A DNA stretch of 64,000 nucleotides, from positions 1-64,000 of the forward strand of contig NZ_JROH01000001.1 in NCBI RefSeq assembly GCF_000786205.1. Reading direction: 5' to 3'. Source of the DNA: Sphingomonas sp. 37zxx. Lineage in GTDB: Bacteria; Pseudomonadota; Alphaproteobacteria; Sphingomonadales; Sphingomonadaceae. Positions 9,834-60,213 of this stretch are shown here, piece after piece; position 1 is the stretch's first letter, and each line of letters starts with the position of its first letter. A program made the translations under genes and the position numbers. Under the pieces are notes generated by a model. The model was not told where the DNA came from. It was given only the letters and a program-made list of their open reading frames with translations, and did no database searches.

Positions 9834-10411
9834 AACGACTTGCCATTTATTGCGGGTCGGCCACCCCGGCCGACCCGGTCTATATCGAATGCGCGCGACA
9901 TGTCGGCCACACCCTCGCCGAACGCGGCATCGGCGTGGTCTATGGCGGCGGTCGCCTGGGGCTGATGGGTGCGGTCGCCGATGCCGCGCTCGAAGCCGGC
10001 GGCGAAGTGATCGGGGTAATCCCCGAGGCATTGGTCAATGCCGAGGTCGCGCATCGCGGCCTCACCGCGCTCGAAACCGTGACGACGATGCACGAGCGAA
10101 AGGCGCGCTTCACCGAATTGGCCGACGGCTTCGTCACCATCCCCGGCGGCACCGGCACAATGGACGAATTATGGGAAGCGATGAGCTGGTCGCAGCTTGG
10201 CTATCATTCGGACCCGGTCGGGCTGCTCAACGCGGCGGGCTATTACGACCATCTGATCGCGTTCGTCGATCAGATGGCAGCCACCGGATTCCTGCGCCCG
10301 CAGCACCGCGACATCCTGATCGTCGAGGACGACCTCTCGCGGCTGCTCGACAAGATGGCGGCCTATGCGCCGCATACCCCGATCTTCCGGATGTCGCGCG
10401 AACAGCTTTGA
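9830..10411 (+). CDS. LOG-family protein (TIGR00730, nucleotide 5'-monophosphate phosphoribohydrolase type)
   Basis: The 193-residue Rossmann-fold protein carries VVYGGGRLGLMG and the catalytic LOG signature PGGTGTMDELWEAMSW (P-G-G-x-G-T-x-x-E), with M-H-E-R-K-A just before it. Characterised members hydrolyse cytokinin riboside or other nucleoside 5'-monophosphates to free base plus ribose 5-phosphate. GTG 9830 overlaps the crtI stop, so it is co-translated inside the carotenoid cluster, although no carotenoid step needs this chemistry. The association may be incidental or reflect a local operon rearrangement. The stop is followed by a REP-like palindrome that separates it from crtB. Confidence 0.9.
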   Translation: MKRLAIYCGSATPADPVYIECARHVGHTLAERGIGVVYGGGRLGLMGAVADAALEAGGEVIGVIPEALVNAEVAHRGLTALETVTTMHERKARFTELADGFVTIPGGTGTMDELWEAMSWSQLGYHSDPVGLLNAAGYYDHLIAFVDQMAATGFLRPQHRDILIVEDDLSRLLDKMAAYAPHTPIFRMSREQL

Positions 10412-10418
10412 CCCCGAT

Positions 10419-10489
10419 CCGTTCGTGCTGAGCTTGTCGAAGCACCGTTCTTCTTTATTCCGGCACTTCGACAAGCTCAGTGCGAACGG
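10419..10489. repeat. REP-like palindrome inside the crt cluster
   Basis: Two arms of about 29 bp beginning CCGTTCG and containing CTGAGCTTGTCGAAG face each other around a short centre. They differ at four positions. This core is a familiar dispersed intergenic repeat of sphingomonads. Here it lies between the LOG-family gene and crtB and would form a strong RNA hairpin in the operon message. Confidence 0.85.
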
Positions 10490-10500
10490 AATTTAGGCCA

Positions 10501-55400: not shown

Positions 55401-56702
55401 ATGTATCTGGAGAGTGACTTGACCGGCGAACCCCGCGCCAACCTGCCCCCGCTGTCGCTGCATGTGCCCGAACCCAAGTTTCGACCGGGCGACAAGGCCG
55501 AGTTCAGCGACGTCATCGTGCCGCCGGCGGGCAGCGGACGTCGCCCCGACCCCGCCGAGCCGGCGGCGCAGTTTCACGAGCTGGCCTATGGGCTGGTGCG
55601 TGTGCTCGACGATGAGGGCAATGCGGTGGGACCGTGGGCACCGCGGCTGACCCCCGACACGCTGCGGCGGATGCTGCGCTACATGGCGCTGGTGCGCGCG
55701 TTCGATGAACGCATGTTCCGCGCGCAGCGGCAGGGCAAGACCAGCTTCTACATGAAATGTACCGGCGAAGAGGCGGTCGCCGTCGCCGCGACGATGGCGT
55801 TGCAGCGCGACGACATGACCTTTCCCAGCTATCGCCAGCAGGGCATCCTGATCGCGCGCGATTGGTCGCTGGTCGACATGATGAACCAGATTTATTCGAA
55901 CAAGGGCGACCGGCTGCAGGGCAAGCAATTGCCGATCATGTATTCGACGCGCGAGGGGGCATTCTTCTCGATCTCCGGCAATCTGGCGACGCAATATCCG
56001 CAGGCGGTGGGCTGGGCGATGGCGAGCGCGGCCAAGGGCGATACGCGGATCGCCGCCACCTGGTGCGGCGAGGGATCGACCGCCGAGGGCGATTTCCATT
56101 CGGCCTGCACCTTCGCCAGTGTCTATCGCGCGCCGGTGATCCTGAACGTCGTCAACAACCAATGGGCGATTTCGAGCTTTTCGGGGTTTGCGGGCGCCGA
56201 GGCGACGACCTTTGCCGCGCGTGCGCTGGGCTATGGCATTGCCGGCCTGCGCATCGACGGCAACGACGCGCTGGCGGTCTATGCCGCGACCGAATGGGCA
56301 GCCGAGCGCGCGCGGACCAACCAGGGACCGACGCTGATCGAGCATTTCACCTATCGCGCCGAGGGGCATTCGACGTCGGACGATCCCTCGCAATACCGAT
56401 CGGCCAATGAAGCCAGCGATTGGCCGCTGGGCGATCCGATCGCGCGGCTGAAGGATCATTTGGTGGCTTTGGGCGAATGGGACGATGCGCGGCACGCGGC
56501 GCAAGACCTTGAGCTGGCCGAACTGGTGAAGCGTTGTCAGAAAGAGGCCGAGGCCAATGGCATATTGGGGCATGGCCTGCACCAGCCGCTCGACACGCTG
56601 TTCGAAGGGGTGTTCGAGGAAATGCCCTGGCATCTGAAGGAACAGCGCGCGCAGATGCTCGCCGAGGAAGAAGCGAGCGGGCGGCCATGGGCACTGAAAT
56701 GA
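55401..56702 (+). CDS. bkdA1: Branched-chain 2-oxoacid dehydrogenase E1 alpha subunit
   Basis: This E1 alpha subunit decarboxylates branched-chain 2-oxoacids with thiamine diphosphate. The 433-residue product has RMFRAQRQGKTSFYMKCTGE, TFPSYRQQGILIARDW, the cofactor motif W-C-G-E-G-S-T-A-E-G-D-F-H, and YRAEGHSTSDDPSQYR with the phosphorylation-loop-like serines. These fit branched-chain rather than pyruvate E1. E1 beta and E2 follow on the same strand. The stop is followed by a large palindrome. Confidence 0.92.
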   Translation: MYLESDLTGEPRANLPPLSLHVPEPKFRPGDKAEFSDVIVPPAGSGRRPDPAEPAAQFHELAYGLVRVLDDEGNAVGPWAPRLTPDTLRRMLRYMALVRAFDERMFRAQRQGKTSFYMKCTGEEAVAVAATMALQRDDMTFPSYRQQGILIARDWSLVDMMNQIYSNKGDRLQGKQLPIMYSTREGAFFSISGNLATQYPQAVGWAMASAAKGDTRIAATWCGEGSTAEGDFHSACTFASVYRAPVILNVVNNQWAISSFSGFAGAEATTFAARALGYGIAGLRIDGNDALAVYAATEWAAERARTNQGPTLIEHFTYRAEGHSTSDDPSQYRSANEASDWPLGDPIARLKDHLVALGEWDDARHAAQDLELAELVKRCQKEAEANGILGHGLHQPLDTLFEGVFEEMPWHLKEQRAQMLAEEEASGRPWALK

Positions 56703-56729
56703 TGAGCAGCGCCGCCCCTCTTCCTTCTC

Positions 56730-56925
56730 CCCTCTCCCCTGGACAGGGGAGAGGATACCGCAGCTTGGTCGCGAAGCGGCCTAGCGAAGGTTGGAGAGGG
56801 GGCGAGCGAAGCGGAGCTTCGCGCGGTCGCAAGTGCGACCGCACCACCCTCACCCAGCTCCGACTAGGCCGCGCTGAAGAAGCGCGACCAAGTCTGCGCA
56901 ACCCTCTCCCGCCAGCGGGAGAGGG
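56730..56925. repeat. Large imperfect palindrome between E1 alpha and E1 beta genes
   Basis: The outer arms are built on CCCTCTCCCCTGG...GGGGAGAGG and CCCTCTCCCGCC...GCGGGAGAGGG. Inner blocks such as CTTGGTCGCG and GCGGCCTAG recur in inverted order on the other side. The last arm ends just before the E1 beta ATG, so GGGAGAGGG becomes its Shine-Dalgarno. The arms are of the same general type as those at 6989 and 58343. Confidence 0.85.
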
Positions 56926-56928
56926 AAT

Positions 56929-57966
56929 ATGAGCGAGACGATGAACGAACCTACCACCCGCATGAACATGATCCAGGCGATCAACTCGGCGATGGACGTC
57001 GTGATGGCGCGCGATCCCGATGTCATCGTGATGGGCGAGGATGTCGGCTATTTCGGCGGCGTCTTCCGCGCGACCGCCGGATTGCAGGCGAAATATGGCA
57101 AGACCCGGGTGTTCGACACGCCGATCACCGAATGCGGCATCATCGGCGTCGCGGTGGGAATGGGTGCCTATGGCCTGCGCCCGGTGCCCGAAATCCAATT
57201 CGCCGATTATATCTATCCCGCGCTCGACCAGTTGGTCTCCGAAGCCGCGCGGTTGCGCTATCGTTCGGCGGGCGAATTCATTTCGCCGATCACGGTGCGC
57301 TCGCCCTTCGGCGGCGGCATCTTCGGCGGGCAGACGCATTCGCAGTCGCCCGAGGGCATCTTCACCCATGTCTCGGGGATCAAAACCGTCATTCCGGCAA
57401 CCCCCTATGATGCCAAGGGGCTGCTGATCTCGGCGATCGAGGATAACGACCCGGTGCTCTTTTTCGAGCCCAAGCGCATCTATAACGGCCCGTTCGACGG
57501 CTATTGGGACCGCCCCGCCAAAAACTGGTCGGCGCATCCTGCGGGCGAAGTGCCAACGGGCTATTACAAGATTCCGCTGGGCAAGGCGGCAATCGCTAGG
57601 GCGGGCAACGACCTGACGATCCTGGCCTATGGCACGATGGTGCATGTCGCGATCGCAACGGTCGAGGAAGCCGGCGTCGATGCCGAGGTGATCGACCTTC
57701 GCACGCTGGTGCCGCTCGACATCGAGACGATCGAGGCATCGGTGAAGAAGACCGGGCGCTGCATGGTGGTGCACGAGGCGACGCGCACTGGCGGCTTCGG
57801 TGCCGAGTTGGCGGCATTGGTGCAGGAGCGCTGCTTCTACCACCTCGAAGCGCCGGTCGAGCGGGTGACGGGGTTCGACACGCCGTATCCGCACAGCCTG
57901 GAATGGGCGTATTTCCCGGGGCCGGTCCGCATCGGACAGGCGCTCAAGAAAATCATGAAGGACTGA
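56929..57966 (+). CDS. bkdA2: Branched-chain 2-oxoacid dehydrogenase E1 beta subunit
   Basis: The 345-residue subunit has NMIQAINSAMDVVMARDPDV, IVMGEDVGYFGGVF, V-F-D-T-P-I-T-E-C-G and PVPEIQFADYIYPALDQLVS, all typical of E1 beta of the transketolase-like fold. The ATG 56929 lies 4 bp after the palindrome, which provides the purine-rich ribosome binding site. Its stop is followed two bases later by the E2 start (TGACGATG). Confidence 0.95.
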   Translation: MSETMNEPTTRMNMIQAINSAMDVVMARDPDVIVMGEDVGYFGGVFRATAGLQAKYGKTRVFDTPITECGIIGVAVGMGAYGLRPVPEIQFADYIYPALDQLVSEAARLRYRSAGEFISPITVRSPFGGGIFGGQTHSQSPEGIFTHVSGIKTVIPATPYDAKGLLISAIEDNDPVLFFEPKRIYNGPFDGYWDRPAKNWSAHPAGEVPTGYYKIPLGKAAIARAGNDLTILAYGTMVHVAIATVEEAGVDAEVIDLRTLVPLDIETIEASVKKTGRCMVVHEATRTGGFGAELAALVQERCFYHLEAPVERVTGFDTPYPHSLEWAYFPGPVRIGQALKKIMKD

Positions 57967-57968
57967 CG

Positions 57969-59342
57969 ATGGCGCGCTTCTCTTTCCGCCTGCCCGATAT
58001 CGGCGAAGGCATTGCCGAGGCCGAGATCGTCCAATGGCATATCGCGGTCGGCGACCGGGTCGAGGAAGACCAGCAGATCGCCGACATGATGACCGACAAG
58101 GCGACGGTCGAGATGGAATCGCCGGTGTCGGGGATCGTCGTCGAACTGGCGGGCGAGGTCGGCGACCAGGTCGCGATCGGCGCGACGCTGGTGGTGATCG
58201 AAACCGATGCGGTGACCGAGAGCGACACGATGGTCGCGGAGAACCCTGGGGTCGAGGAGGCCGTCGATGCGCAAGCGGTGTACCCCACGCCCGAGGAGGA
58301 TGCGCGGATTCGTGCTGAGGCGAAGGACGCGGGGCTTGCGCCGATCCTCCCCGAAACGGGGAGGGGGACCGCCGGCGAAGCCGGTGGTGGAGGGGGATCG
58401 CCGCAGGCGGTGCCGCTAGCGGAAGCCCCCCTCCACCATCCTGCGGATGGTCCCCCTCCCCGTGCCGGGGAGGATCCGCAGCAGCAGGTGCTGGCTTCGC
58501 CGGCGGTGCGTGCTCGCGCCAAGGCGCTTGGCGTCGACCTCGCTTCGGTGAAGTCCGACGGCAATCACGTCCGCCACGCCGATCTCGATGCGTATCTGCG
58601 CTATGGCGGTGGCGAGGGTTATCATGCGCCGGGGGCCAGCCGCGCGCGCGCTGACGTGCCGGTCAAGGTGATCGGGATGCGGCGGCGGATCGCCGAGAAT
58701 ATGGCTGCATCGAAGCGTGCGATCCCGCATTTCACCTATGTCGACGAGATCGACGTCACCGCGCTCGAAGAGATGCGCGCCGATCTCAACGCCAATCGCG
58801 GCGGGCGGCCCAAGCTGACGATGCTCCCGCTGTTGATCGTCGCGATTTGTCGCTCGATCCCCGATTTCCCGATGCTCAACGCGCGTTATGACGATGAGGC
58901 TGGCGTCGTGACTCGGCATGGCAGCGTGCATCTGGGGATGGCGACGCAGACCGATGCCGGGCTGATGGTGCCGGTGATCCGCGACGCGCAGGACAAGAAT
59001 GTCTGGCAATTAGCGAGCGAGATCGGCCGGCTGGCCGACGCCGCGCGCACCGGCAAGGCGAAGTCCGAGGAATTGTCGGGATCGACGCTGACCATCACCT
59101 CGCTCGGGCCGCTGGGCGGGATCGCGACGACGCCGGTGATCAATCGCCCCGAAGTGGCGATCATCGGGCCGAACAAGATCGTCGAGCGGCCGATGTTCCG
59201 GGGCGATGACATCGTTCGCGCCAAGCTGATGAACCTGTCGATCAGTTGCGATCATCGCGTCGTCGATGGCTTCGACGCGGCAAGCTATGTCCAGGCGGTG
59301 AAGAAGCTGCTCGAAACGCCGGTGTTGCTGTTCGCCGATTGA
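57969..59342 (+). CDS. bkdB: Branched-chain 2-oxoacid dehydrogenase E2 (lipoyl acyltransferase)
   Basis: The 457-residue E2 has an N-terminal lipoyl domain with the modified Lys near residue 44 (M-T-D-K-A-T-V-E-M), an E1/E3-binding domain at about 174-208 (LASPAVRARAKALGVDLASV), and a catalytic domain with SISCDHRVVDGF near the C-terminus (His about 428). The linker between lipoyl and binding domains contains a 45-residue insertion encoded by a palindromic DNA element, open in frame. The E3 lipoamide dehydrogenase gene is not in the window. Confidence 0.94.
   Translation: MARFSFRLPDIGEGIAEAEIVQWHIAVGDRVEEDQQIADMMTDKATVEMESPVSGIVVELAGEVGDQVAIGATLVVIETDAVTESDTMVAENPGVEEAVDAQAVYPTPEEDARIRAEAKDAGLAPILPETGRGTAGEAGGGGGSPQAVPLAEAPLHHPADGPPPRAGEDPQQQVLASPAVRARAKALGVDLASVKSDGNHVRHADLDAYLRYGGGEGYHAPGASRARADVPVKVIGMRRRIAENMAASKRAIPHFTYVDEIDVTALEEMRADLNANRGGRPKLTMLPLLIVAICRSIPDFPMLNARYDDEAGVVTRHGSVHLGMATQTDAGLMVPVIRDAQDKNVWQLASEIGRLADAARTGKAKSEELSGSTLTITSLGPLGGIATTPVINRPEVAIIGPNKIVERPMFRGDDIVRAKLMNLSISCDHRVVDGFDAASYVQAVKKLLETPVLLFAD
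58343..58476. repeat. Palindromic element inserted in frame within the E2 gene
   Basis: GATCCTCCCCG at 58343 and CGGGGAGGATC ending at 58476 are the tips of a 134-bp inverted repeat whose inner blocks (GGAGGGGGACC, GGTGGAGGGGG) also pair. It encodes about residues 125-169 of E2, a Gly/Pro/Ala-rich linker. It resembles the intergenic palindromes at 6989 and 56730 but lies inside a gene without breaking the frame. Confidence 0.9.
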
Positions 59343-59372
59343 TCCAGGGAATCGCCCGGCGGCTGGCAATGC

Positions 59373-59726
59373 TCAGCCGTCGGGCCGACTCCATATCCAG
59401 GCACCGCTGACCACCGCGATCGACATCGGCACGATATTCCAGGGCCAGGGCAGGAAGGCCAGCCCCAGGATGCCGCTGCCCGTCAGCCCGATCGCCGCCG
59501 CCCATTTGCCCTTGCGCGGGATCGCACCGCTTCGGCGCCAGGCATGGATCGGCGGCCCGAGCTGGGGATGATCGAGCAGCCATGTTTCAAATCGCGGACT
59601 GCCGCGCGAAAAACAAAAGGCGGCCAGGATCACGAACGGCACCGTCGGCAGGATCGGCAGAAATGCACCGATAAAACCCAGCACCAGCGAAAGGATGCCC
59701 GCAGCGAAATAGAGCGACCGGATCAC
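59373..59726 (-). CDS. DUF454 / YbaN-like membrane protein
   Basis: The 117-residue protein opens LYFAAGILSLVLGFIGAFLP, then ILPTVPFVILAAFCFSRGSP and R-F-E-T-W-L-L-D-H, the DUF454/YbaN signature. Two or three membrane segments follow. Function is unknown. It follows the riboflavin genes on the same strand after 64 bp and may be read from that operon. Confidence 0.88.
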   Translation of the reverse strand: MIRSLYFAAGILSLVLGFIGAFLPILPTVPFVILAAFCFSRGSPRFETWLLDHPQLGPPIHAWRRSGAIPRKGKWAAAIGLTGSGILGLAFLPWPWNIVPMSIAVVSGAWIWSRPDG

Positions 59727-59790
59727 GGCGCGATGCTGCCACCGGATCGATACCCGCAGCGATCGCCGCCCAGAGAAACCGCGCGCCGGC

Positions 59791-60213
59791 TCAGCCGAAG
59801 CGTTCCTTCAGCGCCAGCATCGCCAGCGCCGCCTTTGCCGCTTCGCCGCCCTGGTCCTTTTGCTTAGGATCGGCGCGGACCAGCGCCTGCGCTTCGTTCT
59901 CGACGGTCAGGATGCCATTGCCGATCGCGAGGCCATCCATTGCCAGCGCCATCAGCCCGCGCGCGCTTTCGCCAGCGACGATCTCGAAATGATAGGTTTC
60001 ACCGCGGATCACGACGCCCAGGGCAACGAAGGCATCGTATAAATTGCTCTGGTCGGCCAGTGCCAGCGCGCCGGGAATTTCGAGCGCGCCGGGGACGGTG
60101 ACGGTTTCGTGGGTGTGACCCGCCGCCTCGATCGCGGCGCGTGCGCCCTTGAGCAGCATGTCGTTCAACTGCGCGTAAAATCGCGCCTCGACGATCAAAA
60201 CCTTGGCCATCAA
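59791..60213 (-). CDS. ribH: 6,7-Dimethyl-8-ribityllumazine synthase
   Basis: RibH condenses dihydroxybutanone phosphate with the pyrimidine intermediate. The 140-residue product shows [47 protein letters not shown] and [13 protein letters not shown] 60213 overlaps the stop of ribB (ATGA). It is the last riboflavin gene of this operon. Confidence 0.95.

Follow-up and report, generated by a model that had tools for sequence, protein, structure and literature searches.

A segment of the E2 acyltransferase gene of Sphingomonas sp. 37zxx is, most probably, a mobile or lately mobile palindromic repeat of ~132 bp that sits in frame in the linker of the protein. It would be the sphingomonad counterpart of the Rickettsia palindromic elements (RPE), occupying a kind of tolerated loop that is emptied of one repeat and refilled with another. 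A wider reading can be offered only tentatively: a few loops of sphingomonad housekeeping enzymes may be exchange sites, at which unrelated mobile hairpins are inserted, translated, excised and replaced between close relatives, with newcomers drawn to existing palindromes and essential enzymes being rewritten from a non-coding stock. The analysis concerns the window (the whole stretch of 64,000 nucleotides at the start of contig NZ_JROH01000001.1) and related genomes, which are draft or complete assemblies (those of G010 and G021 are single contigs).

The features of the host gene and of the element, whose repeat family is referred to as F1, are collected in Table 1. The catalytic domain of E2 occupies residues 231-455 (Pfam), and the E1 alpha protein encoded upstream matches the N-terminal family of 2-oxoisovalerate dehydrogenase (Pfam). 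Because of where the Pfam lipoyl and E3-binding domains lie, the residues encoded by the element fall within the linker between these two domains, as the original prediction had placed them, and the reading frame of E2, which was predicted to continue through the palindrome, was indeed found open. In an AlphaFold2 model calculated from 61 aligned E2 sequences (mean pLDDT was 35.4 when nine close E2s only were supplied), the domains flanking the element are well predicted. The pLDDT falls below 50 at residues 127-168, which is almost exactly the element, and also at residues 85-103 and 381-390. The gap between the E1 alpha and E1 beta genes (56703-56928) contains, as judged by eye, a GC-rich F2-style palindromic sequence (CCCTCTCCCC...GGGGAGAGG), an intergenic counterpart beside the same genes.

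Table 1. Positions in the window of the E2 gene, the neighbouring E1 genes and the parts of the in-frame palindrome.
Feature	Position	Strand	Basis or remark
E1 alpha gene, upstream of E2	55401..56702	+	
E1 beta gene, directly upstream of E2	56929..57966	+	
Host gene, encoding the 457-aa E2 acyltransferase of a 2-oxoacid dehydrogenase, probably a branched-chain one	57969..59342	+	Pfam lipoyl, E3-binding, 2-oxoacid_dh; open frame
Lipoyl domain, E2 residues 6-77	57984..58199	+	Pfam
Left outer arm of inverted repeat	58340..58370	+	31 nt, 90% complementary to 58449-58479
In-frame palindromic element, family F1, 132 bp, E2 residues 126-169	58344..58475	+	
Left inner arm, core GGTGGAGGGGG	58385..58410	+	26 nt, 77% complementary to 58413-58438
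Right inner arm, core CCCCCTCCACC	58413..58438	+	26 nt
Right outer arm of inverted repeat	58449..58479	+	31 nt
E3-binding domain, E2 residues 174-198	58488..58562	+	Pfam

An inverted repeat of 134 bp had been proposed at 58343-58476. Its arms are present, and these coordinates proved correct to within a base: comparison with other copies places the unit at ~58344-58475 (ATCCTCCCCG...CGGGGAGGAT), that is, 132 bp or 44 codons, and it may be one or two bases wider on each side. When folded as single-stranded DNA, 58343-58476 reaches -60.4 kcal/mol (z -8.6), and none of 200 dinucleotide shuffles was as good. With the protein sequence kept, the last 180 nt of the E2 linker gave z -6.1 against sampled synonymous codons (0/100 as good) and z -8.6 when the codons of that segment were permuted among themselves. 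For three windows in the catalytic domain of E2, scored by the sampled-codon null only, z was -1.0, 0.7 and -1.4. The hairpin of the E2 element is thus stronger than the protein demands. A search of Rfam over 56000-60000 returned four matches, all far under their gathering scores.

Copies of the element are dispersed in its own genome, where 27 matches were found at 15 places (E <= 0.01, both strands counted). Nine of these places cover at least 90 of the 134 query bases and six are shorter. Thirteen of the 15 lie outside a continuous coding frame, the two inside being E2 and MurD, according to a crude codon-based caller that leaves L300 (MurD of G034) and L077 unmarked though their context reads as those genes. 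The suggestion that the E2 palindrome resembles intergenic palindromes of this genome is therefore upheld, in the form of a dispersed repeat. Across the genus, the F1 linker of G021 used as a query found matches in all 37 genomes, including our own (E <= 0.001; at least 1-61 matches per genome with both strands counted, some genomes having only 1-3 weak ones), and the F2 linker of G010 found matches in 31 of those 37. Five linkers carrying F3-F7, joined into one query, gave 36-120 matches per genome in five genomes. In the control query, made of five joined linkers without strong palindromes, each linker found itself and 0-3 weak matches.

In G021, a copy at 3.00 Mb, 1.4 Mb away from the element in E2, is 93% identical to it over 142 nt, spacer included. 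The similarity stops within about ten bases of the element, and the flanks differ beyond. This copy lies inside a 591-aa open frame, yet is non-coding according to the crude caller. Among 51 distinct copies picked by their end motif (ATCCTCCCC...GGGGAGGAT), the length is most often 132 bp (19/51). With the ends assumed to be ATCC...GGAT, target site duplication in these copies was not above chance: 44 of the 51 had no flank repeat of at least 2 nt compared with 44.9 expected, and no flank repeat exceeded 3 nt. A skew in the composition of the flanks is confined to the bases adjoining the element. A consensus structure was predicted for 44 copies, oriented by a motif that separates the strands unreliably; 97.3% of its cells are paired, and double-sided changes occur in 6 of 35 pairs, consistent with a structure kept under sequence drift. 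The Y1 transposase profile (PF01797), which was found in 5 of 14 control genomes, had a match in one of the ten genomes searched and none in the genome of Sphingomonas sp. 37zxx, and a REP driven by a RAYT is accordingly not supported as the identity of the element. Elsewhere in the window, an F5-style inverted repeat (CTGAGCTTGTCGAAG) was noticed at 10418-10490, between a gene ending at 10411 and the next gene, which from their translations we take to be LOG-type and phytoene-synthase-like, respectively.

A relative of E2 was found in each of the 61 genomes searched, although many of the distant ones have only another E2 type. The linkers were compared in 39 E2 genes from 36 genus genomes, our own included (G007 contributed none), and in 80 named loci, which are the best 80 of 572; 113 distinct E2 genes were left after six duplicates were dropped. 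With element types assigned by hand (motif search and inspection by eye), 68 of these carry an element, each belonging to one of 10 types; 34 carry none and 11 are undecided. Eight of the 39 genus genes were labelled as being without an element. A codon-permutation z <= -3 was obtained for 23 of the 39 genus linkers and for 37 of 73 further named linkers (L193 left out), the latter comprising 33 of the 39 genes with a labelled element, 1 of the 25 labelled as without one and 3 of the 9 left undecided. What the original prediction had named as the mark of an ordinary linker, one protein segment conserved throughout while the palindrome is not, was not found among the related E2 genes: most of them have a different sequence in this segment, a strong palindrome persists in many, and several repeat families are represented.

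The closest relative found, G010 (92% E2 identity), has F2 where F1 sits. Between G000 (F1) and G010 (F2), the E2 flanks are similar, and the last 7-16 bases before the element differ. Sphingomonas sp. PL-96 (L149) shares linker motifs and carries a third family, but falls elsewhere in the tree. This tree was built from the conserved E2 parts, represents the E2 gene alone and has 32 of 110 inner branches open; on it, the 68 element-bearing genes need 38 type changes, or 35 with the types lumped to six; shuffled labels need 37-47 changes (mean 43). Since the observed 38 is near the low edge of the shuffles, this points either to fast turnover or to labels that carry little tree signal. Four named loci of Tsuneonella, Aurantiacibacter and Alteriqipengyuania, which belong to a neighbouring family, were labelled as having no element. 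Two further arrangements were observed: the E2 gene of Sphingomonas folli (L148) has an F1 with ~20 extra residues in its left half, in a 111-residue linker with the frame open, and G030 has three E2 paralogues (L033, L058 and L059), one with F3, one with F5 and one without an element.

Other acyltransferase linkers were examined in the comparison genes L202-L221, which come from selected rather than random genomes and whose PDH and OGDH type names are our assumption from their sequences. A strong palindrome was found in none of ten OGDH-type linkers and in one of ten PDH-type linkers (L216 of G028; z -7.0). These linkers look no less flexible but seldom carry an element, so more than tolerance may be needed to explain which loops receive one.

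In-frame palindromes use several loops besides the E2 linker, and the phenomenon is larger than the single case originally described. F1 copies flanked on either side by coding sequence were found in RNase R (four genomes), LeuRS (three), TruB (four), GlyRS-beta (GlyS; five) and PccA (one), as well as in MurD (one genome, plus a second under the caller's threshold). The F2 query found matches in UvrA (two genomes, at the same site and, by eye, in different frames) and in ValRS (one genome). Pfam was run on ten of the proteins with inserts.

Two of these loops were followed over 37 genomes, with filled and empty sites called by length. Site 1 of GlyRS-beta is filled in 25 of the 32 parsed genomes (46-81 residues, compared with 22-29 when empty); 21 of the 25 have z <= -3 and four are without a strong palindrome. 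The TruB loop is filled in 20 of 35 (65-111 residues, compared with 43-48 when empty), of which 16 have z <= -3, three are without a strong palindrome and one is unscored. The GlyS count leaves out G012 and G007, whose GlyS is partial, and the TruB of G019 is cut; at the search threshold, GlyS was not found in G020, G025 and G035, nor TruB in G007. By hand labels, the inserts are of 11 types in GlyS and 9 in TruB. At the DNA level (E <= 1e-4, at least 40 nt), 22 of the 25 GlyS inserts and 16 of the 20 TruB inserts match the E2 linker of some species, three and four filled loops, respectively, being without a match; in the control, 0/113 catalytic-domain queries matched. Further elements occupy a second site in GlyS. 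In G028, GlyS was seen to contain two inserts of similar peptides.

Occupancy of the same loop also differs between G000 and G010 in these genes. At one place in LeuRS, F1 is present in G010 and F3 in G000 (F3 by eye); the TruB loop is empty in G000 where that of G010 is filled; and MurD of G000 has an F1 that is absent at that place in G010, where the alignment is poor. In comparison with solved chains, the insert place takes up 46 residues in the sphingomonad TruB and 11 in 1sgv_A, 50 in GlyRS-beta and 5 in 7yse_C, and 42 in LeuRS and about 15 in 6q89_A; the alignment of G000 MurD to its solved chain begins after the insert.

The inserts use three reading frames. F1 is read ATC CTC CCC in LeuRS and GlyS, a frame also used in MurD and RNase R; it is read TCC TCC CC in TruB, and GAT CCT CCC or equivalent in the E2 of three species, PccA having this last frame. 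Of 102 readings of F1 copies in each frame, 79-86 are free of stops, so that an open frame often arises by chance, and the GC-rich arms often leave all frames open.

Traces of loss and of superposition were found as well. The TruB site of G029 (L353) is filled, and at the TruB sites of G033 (L369) and G032 (L372), F1-end-like sequences are kept around a few bases with the middle gone; the latter two look like excision remnants (scars) of an F1 insertion. These three sites should be useful for working out how the element exits. By eye, an F1 seems to have decayed in the E2 of G032 and to be decaying in the E2 of G009. In the E2 of Sphingomonas gilva (L128), the left part of an F1 is followed by a whole F2, and in the TruB of G005 a second element is joined to the right part of an F1 (by eye), which suggests that an element can insert into, or next to, one that arrived before it.

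We propose that these elements insert widely and without choice of frame. Insertions that break a protein would be lost, and those in flexible linkers and surface loops would be tolerated and translated. The long hairpin could later be lost by internal deletion, or could decay to an ordinary linker, and the same loop might afterwards take another element. Tolerated loops would then be landing pads, and the protein sequence there would be rewritten from the genome's stock of palindromes. As close relatives have different repeats in one loop, spare DNA appears to keep being rewritten into protein.

Several other explanations were weighed. The segment could be an ordinary low-complexity linker, in which the Pro/Ala/Gly-rich codons of a GC-rich genome are palindromic by chance; 34 of the 113 E2 genes are labelled as being without an element, many of them with Ala/Pro-rich linkers. 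Against this, the two synonymous-codon nulls gave z -6.1 and -8.6, the dispersed copies stand against an almost empty negative control, and inserts of unrelated genes match one another at the DNA level. We give this explanation next to no probability, a chance palindrome being ruled out by the codon nulls, the control linkers and the cross-gene DNA matches. The hairpin might alternatively be kept for a function in the E2 mRNA, such as translation pausing between the domains or an mRNA processing that sets E1:E2 ratios. That the RNA hairpin is very strong (-113.8 kcal/mol for 150 nt) and that hairpins of different families recur at one place would fit such a role; however, the absence of a labelled element from 8 of the 39 genus E2 genes, the decayed appearance of some elements (L036 and L050, by eye) and the presence of the same elements in unrelated genes and outside coding frames make it highly improbable.

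Selection of the insert peptide as a better linker, through its length or flexibility, is also unlikely, if somewhat less so. Element-bearing linkers are longer (median 82.5 compared with 70.5 residues), and F1 has a preferred orientation on the coding strand, 24 inserts lying one way, 3 the other and 7 being unclear (34 of 41 intragenic inserts, which are not independent and were oriented with two references that are both intragenic), but peptide, frame and family all vary among relatives. A possibility with a better claim, although we still consider it doubtful, is that the pads are targeted and not merely tolerated, newcomers preferring existing palindromes or a certain structure, so that one element draws the next. 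The nested or fused elements (E2 of L128, TruB of G005) and the unequal use of similar linkers as pads argue in this direction, and REPs are known as targets of insertion sequences (PMC1525189); against this, no insertion was caught in progress, and the skew in flank composition is limited to the bases beside the element.

Protein-coding palindromes have been reported mainly from Rickettsia and Wolbachia, with smaller cases elsewhere (PMC2229807, PMC2996958). In the present case they occur in free-living bacteria, with high occupancy of certain loops, several families together and turnover between close relatives. Among the matches listed in a search of mainly open-licence literature, no paper on in-frame palindromic repeats in sphingomonads was apparent from its title or the start of its abstract. 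Whether such inserts are neutral passengers or raw material for proteins can be tested by species comparison and ordinary genetics, and the choice between hotspots and divergence for different families at the same site, raised in the Rickettsia literature (PMC3767692), becomes testable. The results also caution against treating such loops as conserved protein sequence in annotation and structure modelling.

Among known repeats, REPs are dispersed palindromes, often in inverted pairs, that are associated with RAYT transposases (PMC3733652, PMC12306157), and some of them lie inside genes (PMC3733652). The sphingomonad element resembles REP/REPIN in being a dispersed palindrome, but differs in its ~132 bp unit, in the presence of a Y1 transposase in only one of ten genomes and in having no GTAG or CGTC tag in 58344-58475 on either strand. 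Like a MITE, it has terminal inverted repeats (the 31-nt arms, 90% complementary), but unlike a MITE it has no target site duplication above chance. The Caulobacter CIR is a dispersed alphaproteobacterial intergenic repeat with GANTC, described in a review as not having been found inside genes (PMC2229807). The element is likewise a dispersed alphaproteobacterial repeat; unlike CIR, it occurs inside genes, and 58344-58475 contains no GANTC.

The nearest likeness is to RPE, which were reportedly described by Ogata et al. (2000, 2002). RPE are palindromes of ~100-150 bp that lie in intergenic stretches and, in frame, inside conserved genes of Rickettsia (PMC2229807, PMC10969869); they form several families, typically in non-structured protein segments (PMC2229807, PMC10969869, PMC2996958, PMC3767692), and an RPE-bearing guanylate kinase is translated and active (PMC2229807, PMC10969869). 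Small repeats fused in frame to genes are also known as WPE in Wolbachia, from Methanocaldococcus jannaschii and as enterobacterial ERIC/RU (PMC2229807, PMC2996958). These belong to other clades, and landing-pad turnover of the sphingomonad kind is not reported for them in the portions of these papers drawn on here. The original prediction of an in-frame palindrome like RPE in a sphingomonad is borne out by the dispersed copies, the open frame and a palindrome beyond what the protein needs: at 132 bp the element falls in the size range of RPE, it forms a long hairpin (z -8.6), and it and its relatives lie in frame in conserved genes (E2, GlyS, TruB, LeuRS, MurD, RNase R, UvrA and PccA) whose frames are open. 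Unlike those of RPE, its hosts are free-living, GC-rich sphingomonads, and likely excision scars and the use of three reading frames are further differences.

With RPE-1 to -3, orthologues have the same group at the same site (PMC3767692), whereas sphingomonad families differ at the same site between close relatives. With RPE-4, -6 and -7, different groups were found at the same loci of orthologues, and hotspots were left undistinguished from a diverged single insertion (PMC3767692). In sphingomonads, the families that replace one another at a single site in close relatives each have dispersed copies of their own, and this favours hotspots in the present case. In its features the sphingomonad element appears to work like RPE, and it is set apart by its clade and by this exchange of families at a single site.
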